From positions 1 through 33,558 of the forward strand of contig NZ_LXQB01000055.1 of the NCBI RefSeq assembly GCF_004421185.1: a DNA stretch of 33,558 nucleotides. The letters are read 5' to 3'. A model generated the notes under the pieces. That model made no database searches, had not been told where the DNA came from, and saw only the letters and a list, made by a program, of their open reading frames with translations. The position numbers were made by a program, and so were the translations under genes. The stretch comes from Methylacidiphilum sp. Yel. GTDB taxonomy: Bacteria > Verrucomicrobiota > Verrucomicrobiia > Methylacidiphilales > Methylacidiphilaceae. This document shows, piece after piece, positions 15,571 to 27,516 of the stretch (the first letter of the stretch is position 1; the number at the start of each line of letters is the position of its first letter).

Positions 15571-16230
15571 TTATCCATTAAAGATTCCATGAATCATCAA
15601 ATGGAAATCAGAGATTTGTTCCACAGTAAAGGAGAGATTTTTAGATTGGATTTCTTGACTTATCTCCTCGATTGTAAAGGAAGCAAGTAGGGAATTAAAA
15701 AAGTCTCTTTTTAAAAGAAAGGGGGCATTTTGAACATAGCTTTCAGTCAACAGTCTTGCTTTTTCTATTGATTCAGGCCGGATAAGATCGACGAAAAAAA
15801 TAAAAGCCCCTTTTTTAGCATACTTTTTGATTGCTTGCCACGCTATTGATAACCTTGGCAAATGATGTAATAAGCTATTGCTAAGCAGAACATCAAAAGG
15901 AGCTGGATAGGACCAAGTTGGAATTATCCCCTCAAAAAGTTCAATGGAATGGGAAAGATGGTATTCTTCGATTCTTTTTCTCCCAATGGAGAGCATGGAA
16001 GGGGAGCCATCGACACCGATTATTTTTGCCCTTGGAAATCTTTTGGCAAAGCGAATGGAAATGTCAGCTGTCCCACAGCCCATATCGAGAACTAATCCTT
16101 CATTAAAAGCAGAAAAAATGGCGGCGAATCGCTCGATAACTGCCTGATGAGCAGTGGAAAAGTCTGCCGATGCATAGGCAAAAGCTTGATGAGGATCAAG
16201 CATTAGTTCAGGCTCAAGCGTTCTTTCCAT
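15571..16230 (-). CDS. Class I SAM-dependent methyltransferase
   Basis: A 219-residue Rossmann methyltransferase. Motif I is LVLDMGCGTADISIRFA at about residue 43, followed by AKIIGVDGSPSMLSIGRKRI (acidic residue that binds the ribose) and FDVLLSNSLLHHL (motif IV). It resembles the UbiE/Methyltransf_25 group. The substrate is unknown. It lies 55 bases downstream of the globin-Roadblock gene on the same strand and may be its operon partner, which makes a link to haem or redox sensing possible but unproven. Confidence 0.88.
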   Translation of the reverse strand: MERTLEPELMLDPHQAFAYASADFSTAHQAVIERFAAIFSAFNEGLVLDMGCGTADISIRFAKRFPRAKIIGVDGSPSMLSIGRKRIEEYHLSHSIELFEGIIPTWSYPAPFDVLLSNSLLHHLPRLSIAWQAIKKYAKKGAFIFFVDLIRPESIEKARLLTESYVQNAPFLLKRDFFNSLLASFTIEEISQEIQSKNLSFTVEQISDFHLMIHGIFNG

Positions 16231-16285: not shown

Positions 16286-17089
16286 TTAAGGGAAAGTGAG
16301 CAAAAGAGTTTTGATTTTTTCTGCTGCCTTTCGAAGTAAAAGAGCAATCACGCCTTCGTAAGAATCAGTAGGATAAAGGATCCCAATGGCCGAATGGGGG
16401 CCAGCCATACAAATGTAAAGTTGCACCTGAGTTCCCGTGATCTTTGTTTCCAATATATTTCCTGCTCCTGCTAACTCACATAGCCTTTTGGCATGTCCAA
16501 TAGTGGAGCTGACAACGGAAGCAATAATGTTTGAATAGTTTGAGAAACTGCATCGGCTGACCGTTGCTCCCTTATTTGTAGAGATGACGATACCAAGAAT
16601 ATCTGGGTTCGCTGCAAACAGATCGGATATTATTTGAGAAAGCTCTTGTTCCAGATACCTTACGAGATATTCGAAAGATTGGCTTTTTTTATGCTCCTCA
16701 ATCATAACCTGGGCCAGCGCTTCATAAGCCTTTATCCAGGTTTGTTCCAATTCTTTATTCCATTCTTTTCCAATGATTTTTCCAAGTGTCCAAATAAGTG
16801 TGTGTCCAATCAACGGATAATGTTCCACTTCCACTCCATACTTAACATGCCGACGGGCTAATTCTTTTGCAGCATCCAAAGCCGTATCAATATCTTGAAG
16901 GTTTAAAACTATCCAATTTAAGACATCTATTAGTTTTCTACCTTGTTTTTCAATATTCTCTCTAAAAAGAGATCGTACATTAGGTTCTACCTCAAAGAGC
17001 CTTTTGTAAAAAAGTAATCCTGCTTCATCAGCCTTCTCTATCACATGGAGCCAACTTTTTTGGATAAGTTTTATTTGCTCTTGCGTCAT
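16286..17089 (-). CDS. Globin fused to a Roadblock/LC7 domain (HGbRL-like)
   Basis: A 267-residue two-domain protein. Residues 1-138 are a globin close to Hell's Gate globin I: LIQKSWLHVIEKADEAGLLF, then Gln49 at position E7, Lys52 at E10 and proximal-type His81 in LARRHVKYGVEVEHYPL. Residues about 145-262 are a Roadblock/LC7 domain (SQIISDLFAANPDILGIVIS, then KAAEKIKTLL), a module that in bacteria partners MglA-like GTPases. I recall a globin of this architecture (HGbRL) from Methylacidiphilum infernorum with Lys-His haem coordination. The role is probably gas or redox sensing rather than simple NO removal. A 19-base palindrome sits 13 bases upstream. It lies downstream of the nitrate genes. 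Confidence 0.9.
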   Translation of the reverse strand: MTQEQIKLIQKSWLHVIEKADEAGLLFYKRLFEVEPNVRSLFRENIEKQGRKLIDVLNWIVLNLQDIDTALDAAKELARRHVKYGVEVEHYPLIGHTLIWTLGKIIGKEWNKELEQTWIKAYEALAQVMIEEHKKSQSFEYLVRYLEQELSQIISDLFAANPDILGIVISTNKGATVSRCSFSNYSNIIASVVSSTIGHAKRLCELAGAGNILETKITGTQVQLYICMAGPHSAIGILYPTDSYEGVIALLLRKAAEKIKTLLLTFP

Positions 17090-17102
17090 AAAAAGAAAGA
17101 TA

Positions 17103-17121
17103 ATTTACAATTTTTGTAAAT
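17103..17121. promoter_or_regulatory. Palindrome before the globin gene, candidate operator
   Basis: ATTTACAA-TTT-TTGTAAAT is a perfect 8-bp inverted repeat with a 3-base centre, 13 bases upstream of the globin start codon. It could be a repressor operator, or an mRNA hairpin covering the start region, which has no visible Shine-Dalgarno. No known regulator consensus was matched with confidence. Confidence 0.45.
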
Positions 17122-17249
17122 GAAGCTATATAATAAATTTATTTTCTTCAAGACGTTCTTTAATGTTCTTTAAGGCGTTGGAAAGCTTCATACCAAGGCA
17201 GTCCTCGTAAAAAGTAAAAGGAAATTTTTCTAAAATTAAGAATAAGATT

Positions 17250-19674
17250 CTAAAACAAATAGCTTAAGGTTCCTTGAATCCAAAAAGGCATTCCTGGAAC
17301 AATATTAGCGTAATCAAAAATTCTTGCCGCTTGAATTCCTGCCCCAAAAGGTAACCAGTATTTATTATCCGTTGTGTTGAAAAGGTAAAGGGAAAATTGC
17401 CAGTGGGGGAGGGAGTAAAAAAGCCGTGTTCTAATAATAAATTCAGGAGGAATGGAATCAGCATAGTTATACCCAAGAAATTGTCTACTAAACCAACTAA
17501 GCCCTACCGTAAATCCTAATCCTGAAGAGGAAGCATAGTTGATCATGCCATCTATAACATTTGTTGGCCAGCCAATAAATGGATAAACGCCAGCAGGAAA
17601 AAAAGCATTGTTGTTTAGAGGTAAAGAAAATAGTAGTGCCTCACTGGTAGAGTAAGTCTGAGTTTCTAAGGGGCCATGACCGACATTTGTCCAGTCTTCC
17701 ATCCCATATTGGTAGGCATAGCCTAGCCGGCAGAGTAAGGATGGGTGAGGTTTATAAGAAAAGTCCAGTTCAAAACCATTCACTGTTGTCTTTGTAGGTG
17801 TCAGTCCTACATTATCGATCCAAAGGTCTTGGGAAAAAATTGTGCCATCAATAAACAACCGCTTGTTTAAAATGTTTAATTTTATGCCAGCTTCATAGAG
17901 CTTGTCGCCTTGATGGAAGGATTGGGAATTAAAAAGAGGAGAGTACCCGCCAAGGACTGCTGCATCAGTAGTATATTCGAAGATGTACGTAAAATAAATG
18001 TTCATCCACTCAAAGGGCATGGAACTAGGACTGATTGAGAAGAGGGGGAGGGATTGTGTTGTTTTTAATTCCTTAAAAAGCATTGGAGGAGTTCCAGGAG
18101 GAGTTTGAGCCTGTACAAAGTAGTTGGTATCTCTTAGCCCTAGAGAAAGGTTCCAAGATTGGTTTAAGCTTATTGTTTGCTGTATAAAAGGAGCTATAGA
18201 GAAAAAAAAGCTATTTGTAGATCCTCCAGAACCATTTAAAGGATTAAAAAAATAGCCATTTGGGGCACCAGGAATTGGCCAAAGCCCCCCAAATTTTGCA
18301 TGGGGATTCATTATATTCTTTTGGAAAAAAGAAGAAGAAATCATATTCCAGCTAGTAGGTAAGCTTGAAACCATATCCCAGCTATTTGCTCCAAAGAAAG
18401 AGGTGGCTACATAATCGAGATTTTTTTGGATATGCCATTCAATGCCACTATCCATCAGATCAGTGAATGAAAAAGTTGAATTAGCTTCTGGAAATTCGAT
18501 ATTGGCAACACACTCCGTTCGGTGCCCAATTTCATAATCTCCCCTACTCGAAAGACAATAATAAACAGGGGGCTGCAGGAGTTGTTCCCGGTTAGACCAC
18601 ACCAGGGTATTGTCTAAAATCTTTAACCGGTCATTAATTGAAAATTTCTGAATCAACTGTAACATTCCTAGCATAGCCCGAGCCCCACCTTCCGGATTTT
18701 GAAGGAGGATCCTACGGCTGATTGGAAGAAGAGGACCGGCATAGAGGGAATAGGGAGGATTATTTATTTGTCCCACATTGATTAAGGAAGGCGAAAGAGA
18801 TCCAGAAGAATAGAGACCATTTTCAATTAAGTTTTCCGTTGGCCTATTCATCCACATAAAAAGAGGAGTATAGTCATAGGTTCCGAAATCGCCGAGAAAT
18901 TCGACTTGATAGTTCTCTGGAGAGTGAAATCCTACATTAAAATATAGGTTTTGTTGATCGTTGTGAACATATTGATAATAATTTCCATTTTCCATGCCTT
19001 GATAGCTGATTCTATAAGCAATATTTGGAGAGATTGGTCCTCCTAAGTCTATAAGCCACATATATTTTTCGTACATACCAGTGGTCCATTGAGCTGATCC
19101 ACGAAAAGAATCAAAATAGGGTTGTTTTGTTAGATAGTTGGTCACTCCAGAGCTTGTTTGGGTGGCTCCAAAGATTGCTTGTGCGGGACCTTCGATAAAA
19201 TCGAACGATTCAATCATGTTCCAGTTCATCGGAATTCCTTGGAAGGCGCCGTTTTGGATGTTCATTTCAATGCCATTAATATAGGGAGTAGAAGGATAGC
19301 CTCTTGAGAAGGGAGCTATCCCTAGACCGTAGTTTACCGATGAATAAGCAGAAGGGATATAAAAGACCACGCTTAGAGGATCTAAAAAAGGCTGCAATCC
19401 CATCCCTAACGCCTGAATGAGTGTTTTGTCGATTGTAAAAACGGTGCGAGGACTATCTAAGATGTCCACTGGTCCGAAGCCTTTCGAGGGTGAAAGCAAA
19501 AAGGAAGACTTTTCTTTTTGATTCTATTGGCACTTGCCCTTTGACTTTTATTGGTGGAACGGCTAAAGCATCCTCTGCCACAGCATCGGCTGTGGAACCC
19601 ACTCCCTTATCAGGATAAATACAAGTGATTAAAAAAAGGGGAGTCAGATAAAATACAATCTGCCTCTGGCTCAT
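17250..19674 (-). CDS. TonB-dependent outer-membrane receptor, interrupted by one frameshift
   Basis: The gene reads in two frames. The first (19674-19453) begins MSQRQIVFYLTPLFLIT, a signal peptide, and reaches VPIESKRKVF. The second runs from about 19499 to 17250, 749 codons: SPSKGFGPVDILDSPRTVF, a plug domain (GYPSTPYINGIEMN, FIEGPAQAIFGATQTSSGVTN), then a 22-strand-type barrel ending in Phe (GTLSYLF). Deleting one T from the TTTTT run at about 19498-19502 joins the two frames. Either the gene has just been inactivated, it is phase-variable, or a base is miscalled. The start codon overlaps the narK stop as ATGA, so it belongs to the nitrate operon. The ligand is unknown. Confidence 0.82.
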
Positions 19675-20984
19675 TTTTTTCTTTTTTCGATCTCCTCTTC
19701 CTCTTTGGATCCAAAAGTTAAAAAAGGGAAGAAAAGGAATTTCTTGCTTTTATGCGGACTTTCCAAAAAAGGATATGGAGGGAAAGGTCTTTTGCCTTCT
19801 GATAGCGAGACAATAGAGATGATTCCGCAAATTAAAAAAAAGAGCGAAAAGAGTCTGAAACCAAAAGAGCAAGAACCAAAAGATTCTTTGATTTTTCCAA
19901 GAAAAATAGGTAAGAGAAAACCGCCAATGCCTCCTGCAGCTCCGACAATTCCTGTCGTTAAGCCAATATGGGAGGCAGCTTGCGTGCCCACCAATTGAAA
20001 TATGGCTCCATTGGCTAGGCCAAGGCATCCCATCATAAAAAATATTGGAGTTAATTCTAAAAGCAGAGGAAAGTAAAAGGAGGGAAGAAAAGCAAAAAAA
20101 CTACCTAAACTAAATAAAAGAATCAATACCTTCATTCCGCCCAATTTGTCGGCTATGGCTCCACCTAAAGGCCTTAAAAGGCTTCCAGAGGCAATGAGCA
20201 AAGTTTGAAGCCCCCCCGCGTTTACTTTCTCTACTCCATACTCATCGACCAGAAAGAATCCCAGATAGCTTGAGAAACCTATAAAACCACCAAAAGAAAG
20301 GCTATACAAAAGGGATAAAAGCCATGTCTTTTTCTGACAGAGCACTCGACAGATACTTTCCTTTGTAATTCTTTCATTCTGGGGCCGAGGAGCATCTTCA
20401 GCAAAAAAAAACACGAAAAGGAAAACAATGAATAAGAGCAGGAAGAAAAAGCCAAAAACCGAATGCCACCCGTATCTGTGTGCAATCATAGGACCGAAAA
20501 GTGTGCTAAGAAGCGTGCCGCTATTTCCGCTTCCAGTCAGTCCTAAAACAAGTCCTTGATGCTGCGGCAAAAACCACCTGCTTGCCATTGGAATGGCGAC
20601 GGCAAAACTTGCTCCTGCAACTCCAAGAAGGATACCGATGAGATATATTTCTTTAAGAGTATGGGCAAATACAAAACCCCAGACGAGGGGGATAAACGAA
20701 ACTCCCATGGCAATAAGAGCCGTTTTTTTCCCTCCATAGCCTAATTCAGCTATTCCCAAGGCAATTCGTAAACTGCTTCCTGAAATAATAGGTATAGCCA
20801 CCATAATACCTTTTTCTACCGGTGTCAGCTTCAGTTCATCTGCTATAAAGGTCCCCACAGCCCCAAGAATCACCAATATGGCAAAACTGATGTCGAAATA
20901 GAGAAAAGAAGAACAAAGGGTCAAAAGGCTTTGTTTATTGACAAAGACATTGGAAAAAAAGGGCTTTTTCATGAGGGAGAGCAT
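19671..20984 (-). CDS. narK: Nitrate/nitrite MFS transporter (NarK/NasA type)
   Basis: A 437-residue major-facilitator protein with about 12 membrane helices. Features of the nitrate/nitrite porter family are the Arg in TM2 (SGSSLRIALG), GLTGSGNSGTLLSTLFGP and the glycine-rich signature GAAGGIGGFLLPIFLG in the second half. It should import nitrate for assimilation, given nasA, nirB and nirD immediately upstream. A second Met at residue 5 is an alternative start; neither has a good Shine-Dalgarno. It begins 55 bases after nirD and ends in an ATGA overlap with the TonB receptor. The C-terminus is basic and glutamate-rich. Confidence 0.93.
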   Translation of the reverse strand: MLSLMKKPFFSNVFVNKQSLLTLCSSFLYFDISFAILVILGAVGTFIADELKLTPVEKGIMVAIPIISGSSLRIALGIAELGYGGKKTALIAMGVSFIPLVWGFVFAHTLKEIYLIGILLGVAGASFAVAIPMASRWFLPQHQGLVLGLTGSGNSGTLLSTLFGPMIAHRYGWHSVFGFFFLLLFIVFLFVFFFAEDAPRPQNERITKESICRVLCQKKTWLLSLLYSLSFGGFIGFSSYLGFFLVDEYGVEKVNAGGLQTLLIASGSLLRPLGGAIADKLGGMKVLILLFSLGSFFAFLPSFYFPLLLELTPIFFMMGCLGLANGAIFQLVGTQAASHIGLTTGIVGAAGGIGGFLLPIFLGKIKESFGSCSFGFRLFSLFFLICGIISIVSLSEGKRPFPPYPFLESPHKSKKFLFFPFLTFGSKEEEEIEKRKK

Positions 20985-21039: not shown

Positions 21040-21339
21040 TTACAAGGTAGGATAAACTTTAATTCGAAACTTTTCAGAGATTGTGCAGTTGCCCGTTTCA
21101 AAAGAAAAAGAGTAAGCATGCAGTGGACAAATGAAGGTCTTTTCATCACATAGAGCTTCGGCAATTGGCCCTCCTTGATGTGGGCATTGGCCTTCGACTG
21201 CCCATATTTTCCCTGTATGGGTTTTAAAGAGGGCAATTTTTATCTTTCCAATTCGAAAGCATCTACCTATGCCACTGACCAGTTCGTTGAGGTGACATAC
21301 TTGATAGAGCCTCTCATTATCCAGCATATTGCCATTCAT
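21040..21339 (-). CDS. nirD: Nitrite reductase small subunit, Rieske-type
   Basis: A 99-residue Rieske [2Fe-2S] protein, partner of NirB. The cluster motifs are CPHQGGP and CPLHAYSF, followed by ETGNC near the C-terminus. It is closer to stand-alone Rieske ferredoxins than to E. coli NirD, which has lost the cluster ligands, so here it should carry a real cluster. The frame is open from 21444, but that would overlap nirB. AAAGGAGA just upstream of ATG 21339 fixes the start. It follows nirB by 22 bases. Confidence 0.9.
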   Translation of the reverse strand: MNGNMLDNERLYQVCHLNELVSGIGRCFRIGKIKIALFKTHTGKIWAVEGQCPHQGGPIAEALCDEKTFICPLHAYSFSFETGNCTISEKFRIKVYPTL

Positions 21340-21361
21340 TATTCGTTCTCCTTTTAGGATT

Positions 21362-23803
21362 TTAGGAAATGGGATTAGGACAGCTTGTTTCAGAAGCAAA
21401 TTGATAGGGAAATTCTTCCTGTTGGGCAGCTTTCCAAGGATCATCGTAGGCCGCTATCGCCTGTTCTATTTCTCTATCTAACCTGTTTTTTTCGGCTTCC
21501 GGAGCTGAGAGTATTTCAGATCTTATTGCTTCGATTCCAAGCCGTTCAACAAAACTATAGCTCCTTTCTGCATATTTTGCGTTTTCTCGATAGTATTGAA
21601 TGAACCGGCCGATACATACAAGCGCCTCCTCATGATCCTTAACGACTGTGAGAAGATCTCCAGCTCTAACCCTTGACCCTGCAGCCCCTCCAATATAAAT
21701 TTCCCAGCCTGTTCCAATAGCTACAACCCCAATGTCTTTGACAGTGGCTTCTGCACAATTCCTCGAACAACCACTTACCGCAAGCTTGAGCTTTGCTGGA
21801 GTTTCTACTCCCTGAAATCTCTTTTCAATTGCTATCCCAAGCTTAGTAGAATCGCCTACACCAAATCGGCAAAATTCGATTCCAACACAGGTTTTGCAGG
21901 TTCTGAAAGCTTTCGTATAGGCATGACCGCAATTCATTCCCAGCTCTTTCCATACCAAAGGCAGTTGCTCTTTTTTTAGTCCAAGCAAGTCTATTCTTTG
22001 GCCTCCTGTAATTTTTATCATGGGGATCTTATATTTTTCGGAGACATCAGCAATTTTTCGTAGTTGTTCAGGAGTGGTGATGCCTCCATAGATTCGAGGA
22101 ACTACCGAATAGGTCCCATCTTTTTGAATATTTGCATGAACTCGGTCATTGATGAATCTCGCATCTGGTTCTTCTTTGTATGATTTAGCCCAGATGGTTT
22201 TTAAAACGCTGGCTAACGCCGGTTTGGAGGCAGCTTCTTCTTTTCCTCCTGCTAGTTGTTGAAAGACAGCTGAAACGCTTCGTAGTTGTCTTTTTTTAAT
22301 CTCTTCGATCAGTTCCCTTTTTTTCAAAGGAATGCAAGGTACATAATAATGGATGGAAGGATCGTCAGAAATTGACTTTTGAGTTGTATTTTCAAAGAGT
22401 CTTTGTACAAGACCTCTGCAACTACCACATCCAGTTCCAGCTCGACTGATGGTCATGACTTCTTTGAGGGTAGAAGAGCCTTTTTGAATAGCTTGTAGAA
22501 TTTCTTTTTTCGTTACTCCATTGCAGTTACATACTTGAAAATCCTCCGGTTTGTTTTCTATTGGTTCTTCTTTTGTTGTGACGGTTCCTTCGGTTAGAAG
22601 ATCTTTTGGAGCACAGGTTAGGGGGAGGGATTTTTCATAGAATTGCACTGCTTCTAATGCGTGGGATGAAGGTCCAAGGAAAATCCCTCCAATTATATTC
22701 TTTTCATTGATCACGATTTTCCTATAAATTCCTCGGTTTGGTTCGGCATAGAGCACACTCTCTTCCCCACCTTCTGGTTCAATGCGGCCAAAAGAAAGAA
22801 GGTCGATTCCGGCAACTTTCAATCGAGCAATCGGCAGAGAACCATTGTAGCCTTGTGTATGGGCTTTGCCCATGAGTGATCGTGCGGCTATAGCGGCTTG
22901 CTGCCAAGCAGCGGCAACTAAACCGTAGGTTTGGCCATTAAACTCGATGCATTCGCCTATAGCAAAGATCCCAGGATGAGAAATCGATTCCATACGAGAA
23001 TCGACAAGAATGCCTTTGTTTACAGCAATCCCGGAGTTTTTAGCCAACTGGCAGTTTGGTTCAATTCCCGTAGCAATAACAACGAGATCTGCTAGGGCTT
23101 CTTTGTGATTTTCAAGTAAGATGGCCAGGCTATTGCCTTTATTTTCTATGCCGATCGTTCTTGTTTTTATCAAGACTTGGATATTAAGTTTTTCTAACTC
23201 CTGTTTTAAAATAGCTCCCGCCATTTCATCGAGTTGCTTTTCCATCAAATGGCCCATAAGATGGATAAGACTGACCTGTAGCCCTCTTTTCTTTAAACCA
23301 TAGGCTGCTTCTATCCCTAGAAGTCCTCCGCCAATGACGATTGCCTTTTTTGCCTCTGAAAGAAGCCTGAGAATGTTGTTACAATCGTTGATTTCTCTAA
23401 ATGTGTATATTCTCTGAGCAAGTTTTCCTGATTGATCGAAAATCCCAGGCAATTTAGGGATCGATGGAATACTTCCTGTGGCCAAAAGAAGTTTGTCATA
23501 TGGAATTTTTTCTTTTTCAGTCCATATTCTTTTATTGACTGGATCGATGTGTAAGGCTTCACAACAGTGTCTGACCACAATTCCATGCTCTTGAAACCAT
23601 TGTAAACTTTTAAGTTCAATTGCCTGAGGCTCCGTTTCCCCAGCAAGCAGACTGGAGAGTAAAATTCGGTTGTAGCCAACCCTGCTTTCCTTTCCAAGCA
23701 GAGTAATCTGATAGTGCTCTGTCCCTCCAATTTCGACCAGTTCTTCAAGGAATCTTACAGCAGCCATTCCGGCACCAATGATGAGGAGTTTTTCTTTTTT
23801 CAT
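21362..23803 (-). CDS. nirB: Assimilatory nitrite reductase [NAD(P)H] large subunit
   Basis: An 813-residue cytosolic enzyme that reduces nitrite to ammonium with six electrons from NAD(P)H. The domain order is typical: an FAD/NAD module (IIGAGMAAVRFLEEL at the start, VIGGGLLGIEAAYGL near residue 158), a BFD-like [2Fe-2S] site (Cys425, Cys427 and a later CGSC pair), then the sirohaem domain with the 4Fe-4S/sirohaem ligands Cys639, Cys645, Cys679 and Cys683 (SGCSRNCAEA). Length is normal. Its ATG overlaps the nasA stop by one base (TAATG), showing tight coupling. Confidence 0.97.
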   Translation of the reverse strand: MKKEKLLIIGAGMAAVRFLEELVEIGGTEHYQITLLGKESRVGYNRILLSSLLAGETEPQAIELKSLQWFQEHGIVVRHCCEALHIDPVNKRIWTEKEKIPYDKLLLATGSIPSIPKLPGIFDQSGKLAQRIYTFREINDCNNILRLLSEAKKAIVIGGGLLGIEAAYGLKKRGLQVSLIHLMGHLMEKQLDEMAGAILKQELEKLNIQVLIKTRTIGIENKGNSLAILLENHKEALADLVVIATGIEPNCQLAKNSGIAVNKGILVDSRMESISHPGIFAIGECIEFNGQTYGLVAAAWQQAAIAARSLMGKAHTQGYNGSLPIARLKVAGIDLLSFGRIEPEGGEESVLYAEPNRGIYRKIVINEKNIIGGIFLGPSSHALEAVQFYEKSLPLTCAPKDLLTEGTVTTKEEPIENKPEDFQVCNCNGVTKKEILQAIQKGSSTLKEVMTISRAGTGCGSCRGLVQRLFENTTQKSISDDPSIHYYVPCIPLKKRELIEEIKKRQLRSVSAVFQQLAGGKEEAASKPALASVLKTIWAKSYKEEPDARFINDRVHANIQKDGTYSVVPRIYGGITTPEQLRKIADVSEKYKIPMIKITGGQRIDLLGLKKEQLPLVWKELGMNCGHAYTKAFRTCKTCVGIEFCRFGVGDSTKLGIAIEKRFQGVETPAKLKLAVSGCSRNCAEATVKDIGVVAIGTGWEIYIGGAAGSRVRAGDLLTVVKDHEEALVCIGRFIQYYRENAKYAERSYSFVERLGIEAIRSEILSAPEAEKNRLDREIEQAIAAYDDPWKAAQQEEFPYQFASETSCPNPIS

Positions 23804-25944
23804 TATTTTTTTTCCTTTCTTATTTCAGTGTGCGTGGTTTGCTCCGTAGGGGATTGAATCTTAGCTGCACACAGCTTAAATGAAGGCATTTTGGAAAGAG
23901 GATCAAAAAGGGATAAAGTCAGCGCATTGGCTTCTACCTGTCCGTTGGAATAAAAAGGGATAAAAAGAGTGTCGAGCCGTAGATTGGGAGAAAACTTTGC
24001 TTTGAAGTATCCTTTACCCCTTTTTGTTTCCACTAAGACATATTGACCATCCTTTATTCCAAAATGACGAGCAACGGCTGGGTTTATCTCGACGATAACA
24101 GAAGGTTCCTTTTCTTGGAGTTTTTGAATAAGCCGAGTCTGCACCCCTGTTTGGTAATGATATAAAGTTCTTCCTGTTGTTAGGTAGAAAGGATATTCGC
24201 TATTTGGTTCTTCAGGAAAAGCGATGGGATAAACGGGATGAAATTTTGCTTTCCCTTTATCTGTAGGGAATCTTTTGCTAAGGAAGATATCTTTTTGACC
24301 TTTGCTTAGGAAAGAATGGCATGGCCAATAAAGCTCTTCTCCTCTAGAAAGCCTTTGGTAGGTAATTGCAGAATAATCTGCAGCTGCTCCAGCGGTAGCT
24401 CTTCGAAGTTCTTCAAAGATGGCTTGTGGATCTGAAGAAAACCTTACTCCATAGCCAAACTTTTCAGCTAGTAAGTGAATGATTTCAAGGTCTGTTTTAA
24501 CGTTTTTCGGAGGATCTAAGATTTTTGGTCTGAGCAAGACACGGCCTTCAAGATTTGTGACTGTACCTGTTTCTTCAGCCCAAATCGCTGTGGGTAAAAC
24601 AACATCAGCCATCGCTGCCGTTTCGGAAAGGAAAGAATCACATACAAGGAGAAATTCCAACTGTGGGAAAAGCCGCTTGAGCTTTGAATTATTTGGAGAA
24701 GATACAATAGGATTGGCTCCAAAGACTAGCATCGCTTTAATACCCTGCGGCTTTTCAAGGGAGTCAAAAATTTCGGTTACACTTTTGTCAGAGGATGGCA
24801 AATCCTTTTCATCGATTTGCCAGAGCCTGGCGATATAGTTCCTGTCGAAAGAATCAAGATTGCTTCGAGCACCTGGCAATTGATCAGGTTTGAGCCCAAA
24901 TTCTCTGGCTCCTTGCCCATTGCCTTGACCAGTCAAAGTACCAAATCCTGAATTTACTTTTCCTACAATCCCAAGAGCTAGGGCAAGGTTGATAAAGGAA
25001 AGGACGTTAAAAACCCCTTGGGTTTGCTGTTCACACCCCCTTCCAGTAAGAATGACAATGTTCTTTTCGGTTTCTAAAAGTTCAGCTACCCTCAATAACT
25101 CTCTTTGAGAAATACCTGTCAGAGTTTCAACTTTGGCAGGCCAAAAAGAAGAAACAGAGTTGGGGATCTTTTCAAATCCATAAGTGTAATTACGAATAAA
25201 ATAGTGGTCGATCTTATTCTTTTGGATCAACAGATAGAGCAAACCATTGGCTAGGATACCATCGGTTCCGGGTTTTATTTGCAGATGCACATCCGCATAG
25301 GTAGTTGTTGGGGTAGGCCTTGGATCAATAGCGATGATTTTTTTGTTCCTTTTTTTCAAGCAGTCAAAATGGGTCCGAATGGGAGGCATGGTTTCCAATG
25401 GGTTTGTTCCAACGAGTAAGAGCAAATCAGTATGGGCAATATAGTCGATGGGAAAGGGTAGCCCTCTATCTATTCCCAAAGCCATTTCAAGAGCTTTAGA
25501 TGCCGAAGCCATACAATATCTTCCGTTGTAATCGATTGCTGAAGATTGCAAGGCAACACGGGCGAATTTTCCAAGGAGATAAGCTTTTTCATTGGTTAAA
25601 CTCCCGCTCCCATAAACGAAGATAGAACTATTTCCCCACTGTGATCGAATCTGGGAAAGCTTTTCTACTGTAAAAGAAATAGCCTCTTCCCAATTAGATG
25701 CTCTAAAGGCATTGTCTTTTTTGGATCGGATGAGTGGATTAAGAACTCTTTTAGGATGTTCAATTAAGGCAGCGGCATGCCATCCTTTAATGCAAATTTC
25801 ACCTTTATTTGTAGCAAACTCTCTTGGTTCTACCCTAAACCCATGACTATCCTGAACAACCCATATGGCACACTGATAACTACAAAAGGGACAATGCGTT
25901 GAATATTTTGCATATATTCTGTCTTTTATATGTTTTTCGATCAT
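23803..25944 (-). CDS. nasA: Assimilatory nitrate reductase catalytic subunit (molybdopterin)
   Basis: A 713-residue member of the DMSO-reductase family that reduces nitrate to nitrite in the cytoplasm; there is no signal peptide. The N-terminal 4Fe-4S ligands are Cys18, Cys21, Cys25 and Cys51 (HCPFCSYQC, GEICIKGW). Molybdopterin-binding regions include GNGQGAREFG and the C-terminal domain from about residue 590 (YPFYLTTGRTLYHYQTGVQT). It lacks the C-terminal BFD [2Fe-2S] extension seen in some NasA/NasC proteins, so electrons must come from another carrier, perhaps NirB/NirD or a ferredoxin. It is the first reductase gene of the operon, after a 437-base gap. Confidence 0.95.
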   Translation of the reverse strand: MIEKHIKDRIYAKYSTHCPFCSYQCAIWVVQDSHGFRVEPREFATNKGEICIKGWHAAALIEHPKRVLNPLIRSKKDNAFRASNWEEAISFTVEKLSQIRSQWGNSSIFVYGSGSLTNEKAYLLGKFARVALQSSAIDYNGRYCMASASKALEMALGIDRGLPFPIDYIAHTDLLLLVGTNPLETMPPIRTHFDCLKKRNKKIIAIDPRPTPTTTYADVHLQIKPGTDGILANGLLYLLIQKNKIDHYFIRNYTYGFEKIPNSVSSFWPAKVETLTGISQRELLRVAELLETEKNIVILTGRGCEQQTQGVFNVLSFINLALALGIVGKVNSGFGTLTGQGNGQGAREFGLKPDQLPGARSNLDSFDRNYIARLWQIDEKDLPSSDKSVTEIFDSLEKPQGIKAMLVFGANPIVSSPNNSKLKRLFPQLEFLLVCDSFLSETAAMADVVLPTAIWAEETGTVTNLEGRVLLRPKILDPPKNVKTDLEIIHLLAEKFGYGVRFSSDPQAIFEELRRATAGAAADYSAITYQRLSRGEELYWPCHSFLSKGQKDIFLSKRFPTDKGKAKFHPVYPIAFPEEPNSEYPFYLTTGRTLYHYQTGVQTRLIQKLQEKEPSVIVEINPAVARHFGIKDGQYVLVETKRGKGYFKAKFSPNLRLDTLFIPFYSNGQVEANALTLSLFDPLSKMPSFKLCAAKIQSPTEQTTHTEIRKEKK

Positions 25945-26381: not shown

Positions 26382-27428
26382 TCAAATAGAAATGGGCAAG
26401 GTATTTGCTTTTTGTTGAGCCACTATTTTTTCAGCTTGCTTATAAATTTCAGGATCAAAAAACGATTGGTTTTTTCTTTCTCCTATCTTTAATACTCCAG
26501 CATCAACCATTTCATTAACAATCCACTGTTCCTTTTCTTTTGAGGGGCTGTTGGCATTGCCTTGACTAAAGACATGAAATGCCTGTCCTGGAATAAAGAT
26601 GTTTTTCCCCATTCGAAAAGGTCCAATAAGGCTGTGTCGAAGCACTTCTAGAGGCTGAGCAATCCATCCCCCATAGTGCAGCATTTCGGCCAAAGCCTGT
26701 CTGTTAAGAGGGCTGTCTGCCCATTGGCAGGCTTCTATAAGAGAGCCAACAATCCGTATATGTTCTTCCCTTTTTCTTTCTTTGTACTTTGCATTTGCAA
26801 GCAATACTTTTTCGGGATGTCTTGGAGCTAGGTCAAGACTTGTAGCCACACAATAACCCGTTTTTTCGAACAGTGAAACAGAATTCCATGGTTCTCCAAC
26901 ACAAAAGCCATCAATAAATCCTTCTTTGAGGTGAAGAGGCATTTGAGGAGGAGGCAAGGGAACAAAGCGAATATCCTTTTGTGGATTTAAGCCTATCTTT
27001 TGAAGCCATCGAAGAAGGAGAAAATAGTGGCTAGAAAAAGTGGAAGCTACACCAAAAAGTAGAGGAAGGGCGCTGGTTGCTTTTAAAATCCTTCCATAGT
27101 TTTCAAAAGGTTCATTTTCTAAGATCGAGCTATATTTTTTAGAAAGAGTGATTGCATTGCCATTAAGATTCAAAACGAAGGCTGTTGAACATCGATAGGG
27201 AATCGATTTTAAACCATAATTCAAGACAAGGGGTAGACCGCAGACGGCTTGAGCAAAATCCAGCTCTTCATAGACAATCTTTCCTCGGATCGTTGCCCAG
27301 CCAGGCTCAGGACTAAGGTGAACGTCAAAACCCCACTTTTTAAATAATCCCATTTCTAAAGCTACGACCAACGGAGCACAATCGATCAAAGGAACATAAC
27401 CAATGGTTATTTTAGATCCTATCCTCAA
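26382..27428 (-). CDS. NasS/NrtA-like nitrate-binding sensor protein, cytosolic
   Basis: A 348-residue protein of the NrtA/CmpA substrate-binding fold: IGYVPLIDCAPLVVALEMGL, GWATIRGKIVYEELDFAQAV, GFIDGFCVGEPWNS and the C-terminal half LRHSLIGPF. It has no signal peptide and no ABC permease or ATPase beside it, which fits NasS, the cytosolic nitrate/nitrite sensor of NasST systems, better than a transporter subunit. The frame is open to TTG 27512, but TTG 27428 has GAGGAGGT eight bases upstream, and the sigma-54 element at 27484-27499 lies inside the longer reading. No NasT (ANTAR) gene is in the window. Confidence 0.82.
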   Translation of the reverse strand: MRIGSKITIGYVPLIDCAPLVVALEMGLFKKWGFDVHLSPEPGWATIRGKIVYEELDFAQAVCGLPLVLNYGLKSIPYRCSTAFVLNLNGNAITLSKKYSSILENEPFENYGRILKATSALPLLFGVASTFSSHYFLLLRWLQKIGLNPQKDIRFVPLPPPQMPLHLKEGFIDGFCVGEPWNSVSLFEKTGYCVATSLDLAPRHPEKVLLANAKYKERKREEHIRIVGSLIEACQWADSPLNRQALAEMLHYGGWIAQPLEVLRHSLIGPFRMGKNIFIPGQAFHVFSQGNANSPSKEKEQWIVNEMVDAGVLKIGERKNQSFFDPEIYKQAEKIVAQQKANTLPISI

Positions 27429-27483
27429 TGCTCTACCTCCTCGTGTTACTTCCCCCCCTCTTCCAACTTTGTCTCTTTTCTCA

Positions 27484-27499
27484 AGCAGGTAGAATGCCA
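27484..27499 (-). promoter_or_regulatory. Candidate sigma-54 promoter of the NasS-like gene
   Basis: TGGCATTCTACCTGCT on the minus strand has GG and GC at the correct distance and shares the TGGCAT block with the amtB and PII elements; the -12 half is CTGC rather than TTGC. Predicted start is near 27474, some 46 bases before TTG 27428. Confidence 0.45.
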
Positions 27500-27516
27500 A
27501 AGGGGGATGCAAATTG

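Follow-up and report, generated by a model that had tools for sequence, protein, structure and literature searches.

A globin fused to a Roadblock/LC7 domain beside the nitrate-assimilation genes of Methylacidiphilum: a candidate haem sensor

When looked at through its closest described relatives, the protein considered here belongs with HGbRL of Methylacidiphilum infernorum, which has had a structure since 2015, although neither its ligand nor its partner nor its pathway has been assigned in the accessible literature. As far as the available text of Teh et al. 2015 (PMC4476040) goes, the globin half was solved (3WFW and 3WFX), the fusion to the Roadblock domain and the coordination of the haem by Lys E10 were described, and a fused E-F helix and a site-swapped dimer were presented as features of the protein. 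The same text reports spectra with a Lys-His closed form and slow oxygenation, observes O2 binding, and proposes, from the structures of the globin half alone, that a ligand-driven change is relayed to the output domain, in the way of a globin-coupled sensor; no work on NO was found in it. A second M. infernorum globin, HGbI (3S1I), shares Gln E7 and Lys E10 with HGbRL, but it consists of a globin domain alone, with no Roadblock; it also lacks Trp59 and has Ser at E8 and a Pro at the E-F turn. Further afield, the narK-bjgb-flp-nasC genes of Bradyrhizobium japonicum encode the single-domain haemoglobin Bjgb together with narK and nasC, much as HGbRL adjoins nas genes, and Bjgb is part of NO detoxification; compared by description, it differs from HGbRL in that the available text mentions no Roadblock (PMC4724949). 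On the other side of the fusion, HGbRL shares the Roadblock family with MglB and the conservon CvnB regulators of small GTPases. The region of Myxococcus xanthus MglB with GEF activity is, in the accessible account, its C-terminal helix; HGbRL ends directly after the last Roadblock helix and has no long C-terminal extension.

The window analysed here, a 33,558-nucleotide stretch of Methylacidiphilum sp. Yel (NZ_LXQB01000055.1), carries a gene of this kind on its minus strand (Table 1): translation of the plus strand over the same interval meets many stops, while the minus strand is free of them. The initial annotation, made from the sequence alone, had proposed a globin joined to a Roadblock/LC7 domain, and both domains do exceed their Pfam cut-offs (Globin PF00042, 54.4 bits against 22, residues 27-129; Robl_LC7 PF03259, 27.9 bits against 23, residues 154-238). 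It had compared the globin half to HGbI; the closest known protein is instead HGbRL, by far the best PDB match being 3wfw, annotated as fused to a Roadblock/LC7 domain (E 2.6e-68, as against 2.2e-26 for HGbI, 3s1i). Because of these values and the identity of 105 of 133 globin residues to 3wfw, the protein is much nearer to HGbRL than to HGbI, and we regard it as virtually certain that the gene is the orthologue of M. infernorum HGbRL, the very species from which the annotation had said the protein type was known. That annotation had also offered a haem sensor with a GTPase partner as a new idea, which it is not, since both the sensor idea and an MglB/MglA-like pair are already in the available text of Teh et al. 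2015 (PMC4476040). The fusion, the Lys-E10 coordination, that pair and the adjacent methyltransferase are thus prior knowledge, and the core idea is not new. What is new is a family-wide tie between globins and nitrate assimilation, together with a refined view of the Roadblock half. Our main reading, to which as a whole chain we give a probability of about 35%, is that HGbRL may serve nitrate assimilation as a haem sensor, with NO as a possible ligand, and signal via its Roadblock half.

Table 1. Features of the HGbRL locus and of the small GTPase module (positions refer to the window unless L023 is given)
Feature	Position	Strand	Basis or remark
HGbRL orthologue, 267 aa: globin (aa 1-134), linker helix, Roadblock/LC7 (aa ~140-267)	16286..17089	-	Pfam, PDB, orthologue alignment
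Globin half (aa 1-134), with Y28, Q49, K52, W59, H81	16688..17089	-	Pfam, residue comparison
Roadblock/LC7 half (aa ~140-267)	16286..16672	-	Pfam, tree, hhalign
Class I SAM-dependent methyltransferase, directly downstream of HGbRL, 55-bp gap	15571..16230	-	
HGbRL leader, promoter-like TTGAAG...TTATATA block, perfect 8-bp inverted repeat 17103-17121	17090..17249	-	
TonB-dependent receptor-like protein	17250..19499	-	weak plug match, below cut-off
NarK-type MFS transporter (MFS_1)	19671..20984	-	
NirD-type small subunit	21040..21444	-	named from position and sequence
NirB nitrite reductase large subunit	21362..23803	-	TIGR02374, above cut-off
NasC-type assimilatory nitrate reductase	23803..25944	-	723 bits, below cut-off 1100
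NrtA/NMT1-like binding protein	26382..27512	-	
HRL, stand-alone Roadblock gene	L023 9274-9648		adjoins GTPase
Small GTPase candidate, 187 aa	L023 9809-10372		PF03029, PF00025
266-aa protein, overlaps GTPase gene start	L023 10335-11135		no Pfam or NCBIfam match

Full-length HGbRL matches were present in six of the 60 genomes searched, that of the window included, and the six orthologues align over 267 columns. Five come from genomes of the same genus (G000-G004, one of which is the window's own) and one from a second genus of the family (G005), within a family sample of 13 genomes. Identity to the window protein is 96-97% in G003 and G004, 70-71% in G001 and G002, and 49% in G005. In G002, which we take to be M. 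infernorum V4, the first 133 residues are the 3WFW chain itself (133/133). Compared with that protein, to which it is 71% identical, the window protein has the same two domains, the same pocket residues and the same methyltransferase neighbour; K29 and K75 stand where M. infernorum has Arg, and the kind of protein is unchanged. Teh et al. 2015 (PMC4476040), in the accessible text, call HGbRL unique to Methylacidiphilum; the G005 orthologue widens its range into a second genus. Outside the family no globin-Roadblock fusion was found in 387 genomes of the phylum, where all such matches are confined to residues 1-140, nor among five loci from genome contigs, and none of 151 plasmid records covered 80% of the HGbRL query. 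Both halves of the protein are under purifying selection, with dN/dS values of 0.04-0.20 by both methods when three pairs of closely related genomes are compared.

The genes for the NasC-type reductase, NirB, NirD, the NarK-type transporter and the TonB-type receptor all lie upstream of HGbRL on the same strand, in agreement with the proposed place of the fusion downstream of nitrite-forming genes (the NasC assignment scoring below its curated cut-off). All five genomes of the genus show the order nasC-nirB-nirD-narK-TonB receptor-HGbRL-methyltransferase on a single strand. However, this is general synteny, because the flanking genes (nrdAB, lysA, pfkB and others) are conserved there too, so that order within the genus tells little by itself. 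The nasC-type gene of G004 (L062, G004:C1:1093061-1095198) is split over two frames, with 662 and 86 aa matched, and may be frameshifted in the genome or in the assembly. The methyltransferase gene, whose M. infernorum counterpart is reported in the available part of Teh et al. 2015, has been suggested there as the output, HGbRL then regulating methylation of a target (PMC4476040). Its position, adjacent on the same strand with a short gap, and its close orthologues (62% identity or more) in five of five genomes of the genus would suit such a role. Close orthologues are nevertheless found in none of the eight other family genomes, including G005, which has HGbRL and a best match of only 29%, and the adjacency is explained by synteny, for which reasons we hold this output to be quite improbable.

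A search for conserved linkage to nas/nir genes, which the initial annotation had put forward, thus gives a divided answer: across the family, globins and nas genes go together, but the block as a whole is syntenic within the genus, and the HGbRL gene of G005 lies outside its nas cluster, beside what by eye are an ABC transporter and a transposase-like frame, with the Nas reductase on another contig. Better evidence than the order within the genus comes from the sister genus, since the flanks differ there: in G006, G009 and G012 the gene between nirD and narK encodes a single-domain globin, in G011 such a globin adjoins narK on a short contig that breaks off there, and around these clusters no window gene was matched except the nas genes, NrtA and LysR. 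Across the family sample, 10 of 13 genomes have PF00042 globins, and exactly these ten also carry a NasC-type reductase (47% identity or more), a count that includes G012, cut by a contig end, and the split gene of G004. The other three (G007, G008, G010) have neither, and carry only the 27% molybdoenzyme that is present in all 13. The chance of such co-occurrence is 1 in 286 if genomes are treated as independent, which they are not.

In a wider set of 20 more globin loci, three, which come from two families, have a Nas-type reductase within the 18-kb stretch, accompanied by nitrite-reductase-like genes; of five globin loci from genome contigs, one (L076) has such a reductase. Among 20 control stretches, drawn from 12 of the same genomes, none had a Nas-type reductase and no other query matched. 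The difference is not significant alone (Fisher 0.115); a rough binomial, for which a gene density was assumed, gives 0.0005. Three plasmid globins (H2, H3, H7) have no nas genes in their annotation, which is incomplete. A separate observation on globin loci is a reductase resembling the N-terminal part of NirB about 2.4-3.3 kb from the globin in L120, L121, L126, L076, L079 and L122 (other Verrucomicrobiota and Spongiibacter), which together with the globin looks like a recurring cassette; multihaem-like cytochromes are also encoded at L120 and L076, the two whose frames were read.

The adjacency could instead be an accident of shared synteny, HGbRL then sensing O2 or redox state with no relation to nitrogen, as the displaced gene of G005 and the published binding of O2 (PMC4476040, in its accessible part) would allow. 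We consider this unlikely because globins turn up again in other nas clusters whose surroundings differ, both in the sister genus and further away, and judge a functional tie of HGbRL to nitrate assimilation to be probable. Our search of openly available full texts returned no link between the two.

The position of HGbRL in the nas cluster, where the sister genus has a different globin, hints that it deals with nitrite or nitric oxide. The available text of Teh et al. 2015 (PMC4476040) argues that both halves of HGbRL are duplicated in the genome, which would leave it free to change. G002 does have an HGbI gene, which lies in opposite orientation in the interval from nasC to NrtA, but HGbI was not found in G000, G001, G003 or G004. 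HGbRL is therefore no spare copy of HGbI in four of the five genomes, and the published redundancy argument is valid for G002 and perhaps for G005, not for the others. PF00042 in fact matches nothing but HGbRL in G000, G001 and G004, and in G003 it adds only a broken copy of the gene. Matches to the truncated-haemoglobin family (PF01152) occur in all five. As regards descent, HGbI pairs in the tree with an HGbI-like globin of G005, which speaks against an origin of HGbRL from HGbI, although the topology test does not reject a joint clade of the two (p 0.187). The nas-cluster globin of the sister genus also stands apart from HGbRL, with a test (p 0.248) that decides neither way.

Being the sole intact PF00042 globin of four genomes is also what would be expected if HGbRL were mainly an enzyme for the removal of NO, by oxidation to nitrate or in another way, in place of the single-domain globin of the sister genus, with the Roadblock serving as a dimer or docking module. 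The precedent of Bjgb (PMC4724949, as far as available), the retention of Y28 and Q49, and the accessible literature on these bacteria, which leaves room for a further NO-oxidising enzyme, point the same way. Set against this are the lack of a reductase domain, the norBC genes, which in the accessible accounts of related strains already deal with NO, the truncated-haemoglobin matches in each of the five genomes of the genus, and the spectra in the available text of PMC4476040, whose closed Lys-His form and slow oxygenation favour a sensor. Overall, a mainly enzymatic role seems rather unlikely to us.

The sensor reading begins in the haem pocket, where the Gln E7, Lys E10 and proximal His named by the initial annotation were recognised as Q49, K52 and H81, alongside Tyr B10 (Y28), Gly E8 (G50) and Trp E17 (W59). 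All six are kept in each of the seven HGbRL sequences compared, a count that includes the broken copy of G003. Among 32 other globins, Q49 recurs in 31, K52 in 24 and G50 in 17, W59 in none, and Pro at position 72 is present in 22, against none of the seven HGbRL rows. Since the switch residues are so common elsewhere, the Lys E10 switch probably predates the fusion, and what sets HGbRL apart are the residues that go with the fused E-F helix, as judged from W59 and position 72. Site-swapping should not be assumed for the G005 orthologue, because its sequence places Pro65 within the fused E-F stretch; this orthologue also carries Ser68. AlphaFold models were made for the window protein and five single-domain globins; in the single-chain model of HGbRL the E and F helices are separate (46-62 and 67-84), an arrangement that speaks neither for nor against the site swap, and helix H is continuous into the linker (112-160), with block pLDDT dropping along it from 93 to 53-58. 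The globin half is modelled confidently and the Roadblock half mostly at pLDDT below 50.

The Roadblock half, as far as its sequence tells, goes with the family's own stand-alone HRL proteins and not with classical MglB. In the tree, the Roadblock halves of HGbRL form one group (support 96/98, long branch) nested among the HRL proteins and separate from the MglB-type proteins of other families; hhalign matches them to HRL at 99.4% (E 1e-21, 114 columns) and returned no match to a set of 13 MglB-type proteins, and phmmer gave only weak matches of HGbRL to MglB (E 0.059 and up). The closer matches of HRL itself are 7f8m (E 1e-11) and CvnB5 (3leq, 3e-8), with MglB more distant (0.17). At the MglA-binding hot spot (A64 and G68 of M. 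xanthus MglB), HGbRL has G198, which is small, and R202, which is not; A64R/G68R corresponds, in the accessible source, to a Thermus thermophilus MglB variant with reduced GAP activity. R202 would thus speak against a classical MglB-type contact, but not against one of HGbRL's own kind, because HRL, which is encoded beside a GTPase, carries the same Gly and Arg. At the positions of M. xanthus MglB N37 and R98, HGbRL has, by eye, K173 and H232, the letters that T. thermophilus MglB also shows in the alignments.

A genome check for a small GTPase, also proposed initially, yields, with PF03029 and PF00025, one candidate next to the stand-alone Roadblock gene, so that, with the family-wide tie of globins to nas genes, both sequence-based conditions that would have refuted the initial annotation turn out in its favour. 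The candidate is the sole match to PF03029, whereas PF00025 finds it together with four longer frames (368-702 aa). The 266-aa protein whose gene overlaps it is a possible third member of this module. All 13 family genomes encode relatives of the GTPase whether or not they have HGbRL, and the occurrence of the one thus does not depend on the other. The MglB/MglA-like pair named for M. infernorum by Teh et al. 2015 (PMC4476040, available text) lies elsewhere in the genome.

From these elements and the published 3WFW/3WFX structures, a course of events can be sketched for the sensor. Binding of a ligand would displace Lys52 (E10) from the haem; helix E would then shift, and the movement could be carried via helix H into the Roadblock domain, which might pair or compete with HRL at the small GTPase encoded beside it and so tune that GTPase. 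The ligand could be nitric oxide (or O2), NO being suggested because the nas/nir genes handle nitrite, from which NO can arise; NO as the main ligand we put a little short of even odds, and a GTPase output slightly lower still. The bolder view that an ordinary NO-handling globin of the nas cluster was replaced in Methylacidiphilum by a Roadblock-wired one, which reports NO or nitrite stress to one small Ras-like GTPase, is speculative and on balance unlikely. The cluster data suggest for HGbRL a concrete candidate pathway (nitrate assimilation, NO), one candidate small GTPase and one candidate Roadblock partner, in genomes where for the most part, contrary to the published reasoning, it is not a dispensable duplicate. 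If the view of a Roadblock-wired globin is true, a bacterial small GTPase would here be under the control of a haem-gated regulator.

As to expression, the nas genes of M. fumariolicum SolV rise 9-45-fold on nitrate; no figure was found for HGbRL, which is absent from the SolV transcript table in the available part of that source (PMC5623727). HGbRL and the methyltransferase gene may have their own promoter, because the promoter-like block of the leader aligns, by eye, in all five genomes of the genus; a scan for consensus promoters and terminators gave no excess and nothing in this leader, and of 25 matches to sigma-54 sites (14.5 expected) none falls within it. The inverted repeat in the leader, with a 3-bp spacer and the only exact copy in the genome, was considered as an operator and rejected: 17% of simulated AT-rich leaders give such a repeat, and it is degraded in G001 and G002. 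The broken HGbRL copy of G003, 83% identical in its globin part and 79% in its Roadblock part and interrupted by internal stops, is grouped with a second amtB, truncated nrdA pieces and an amtB fragment (L026, 881-5460), and this region looks like a decayed segmental duplication.
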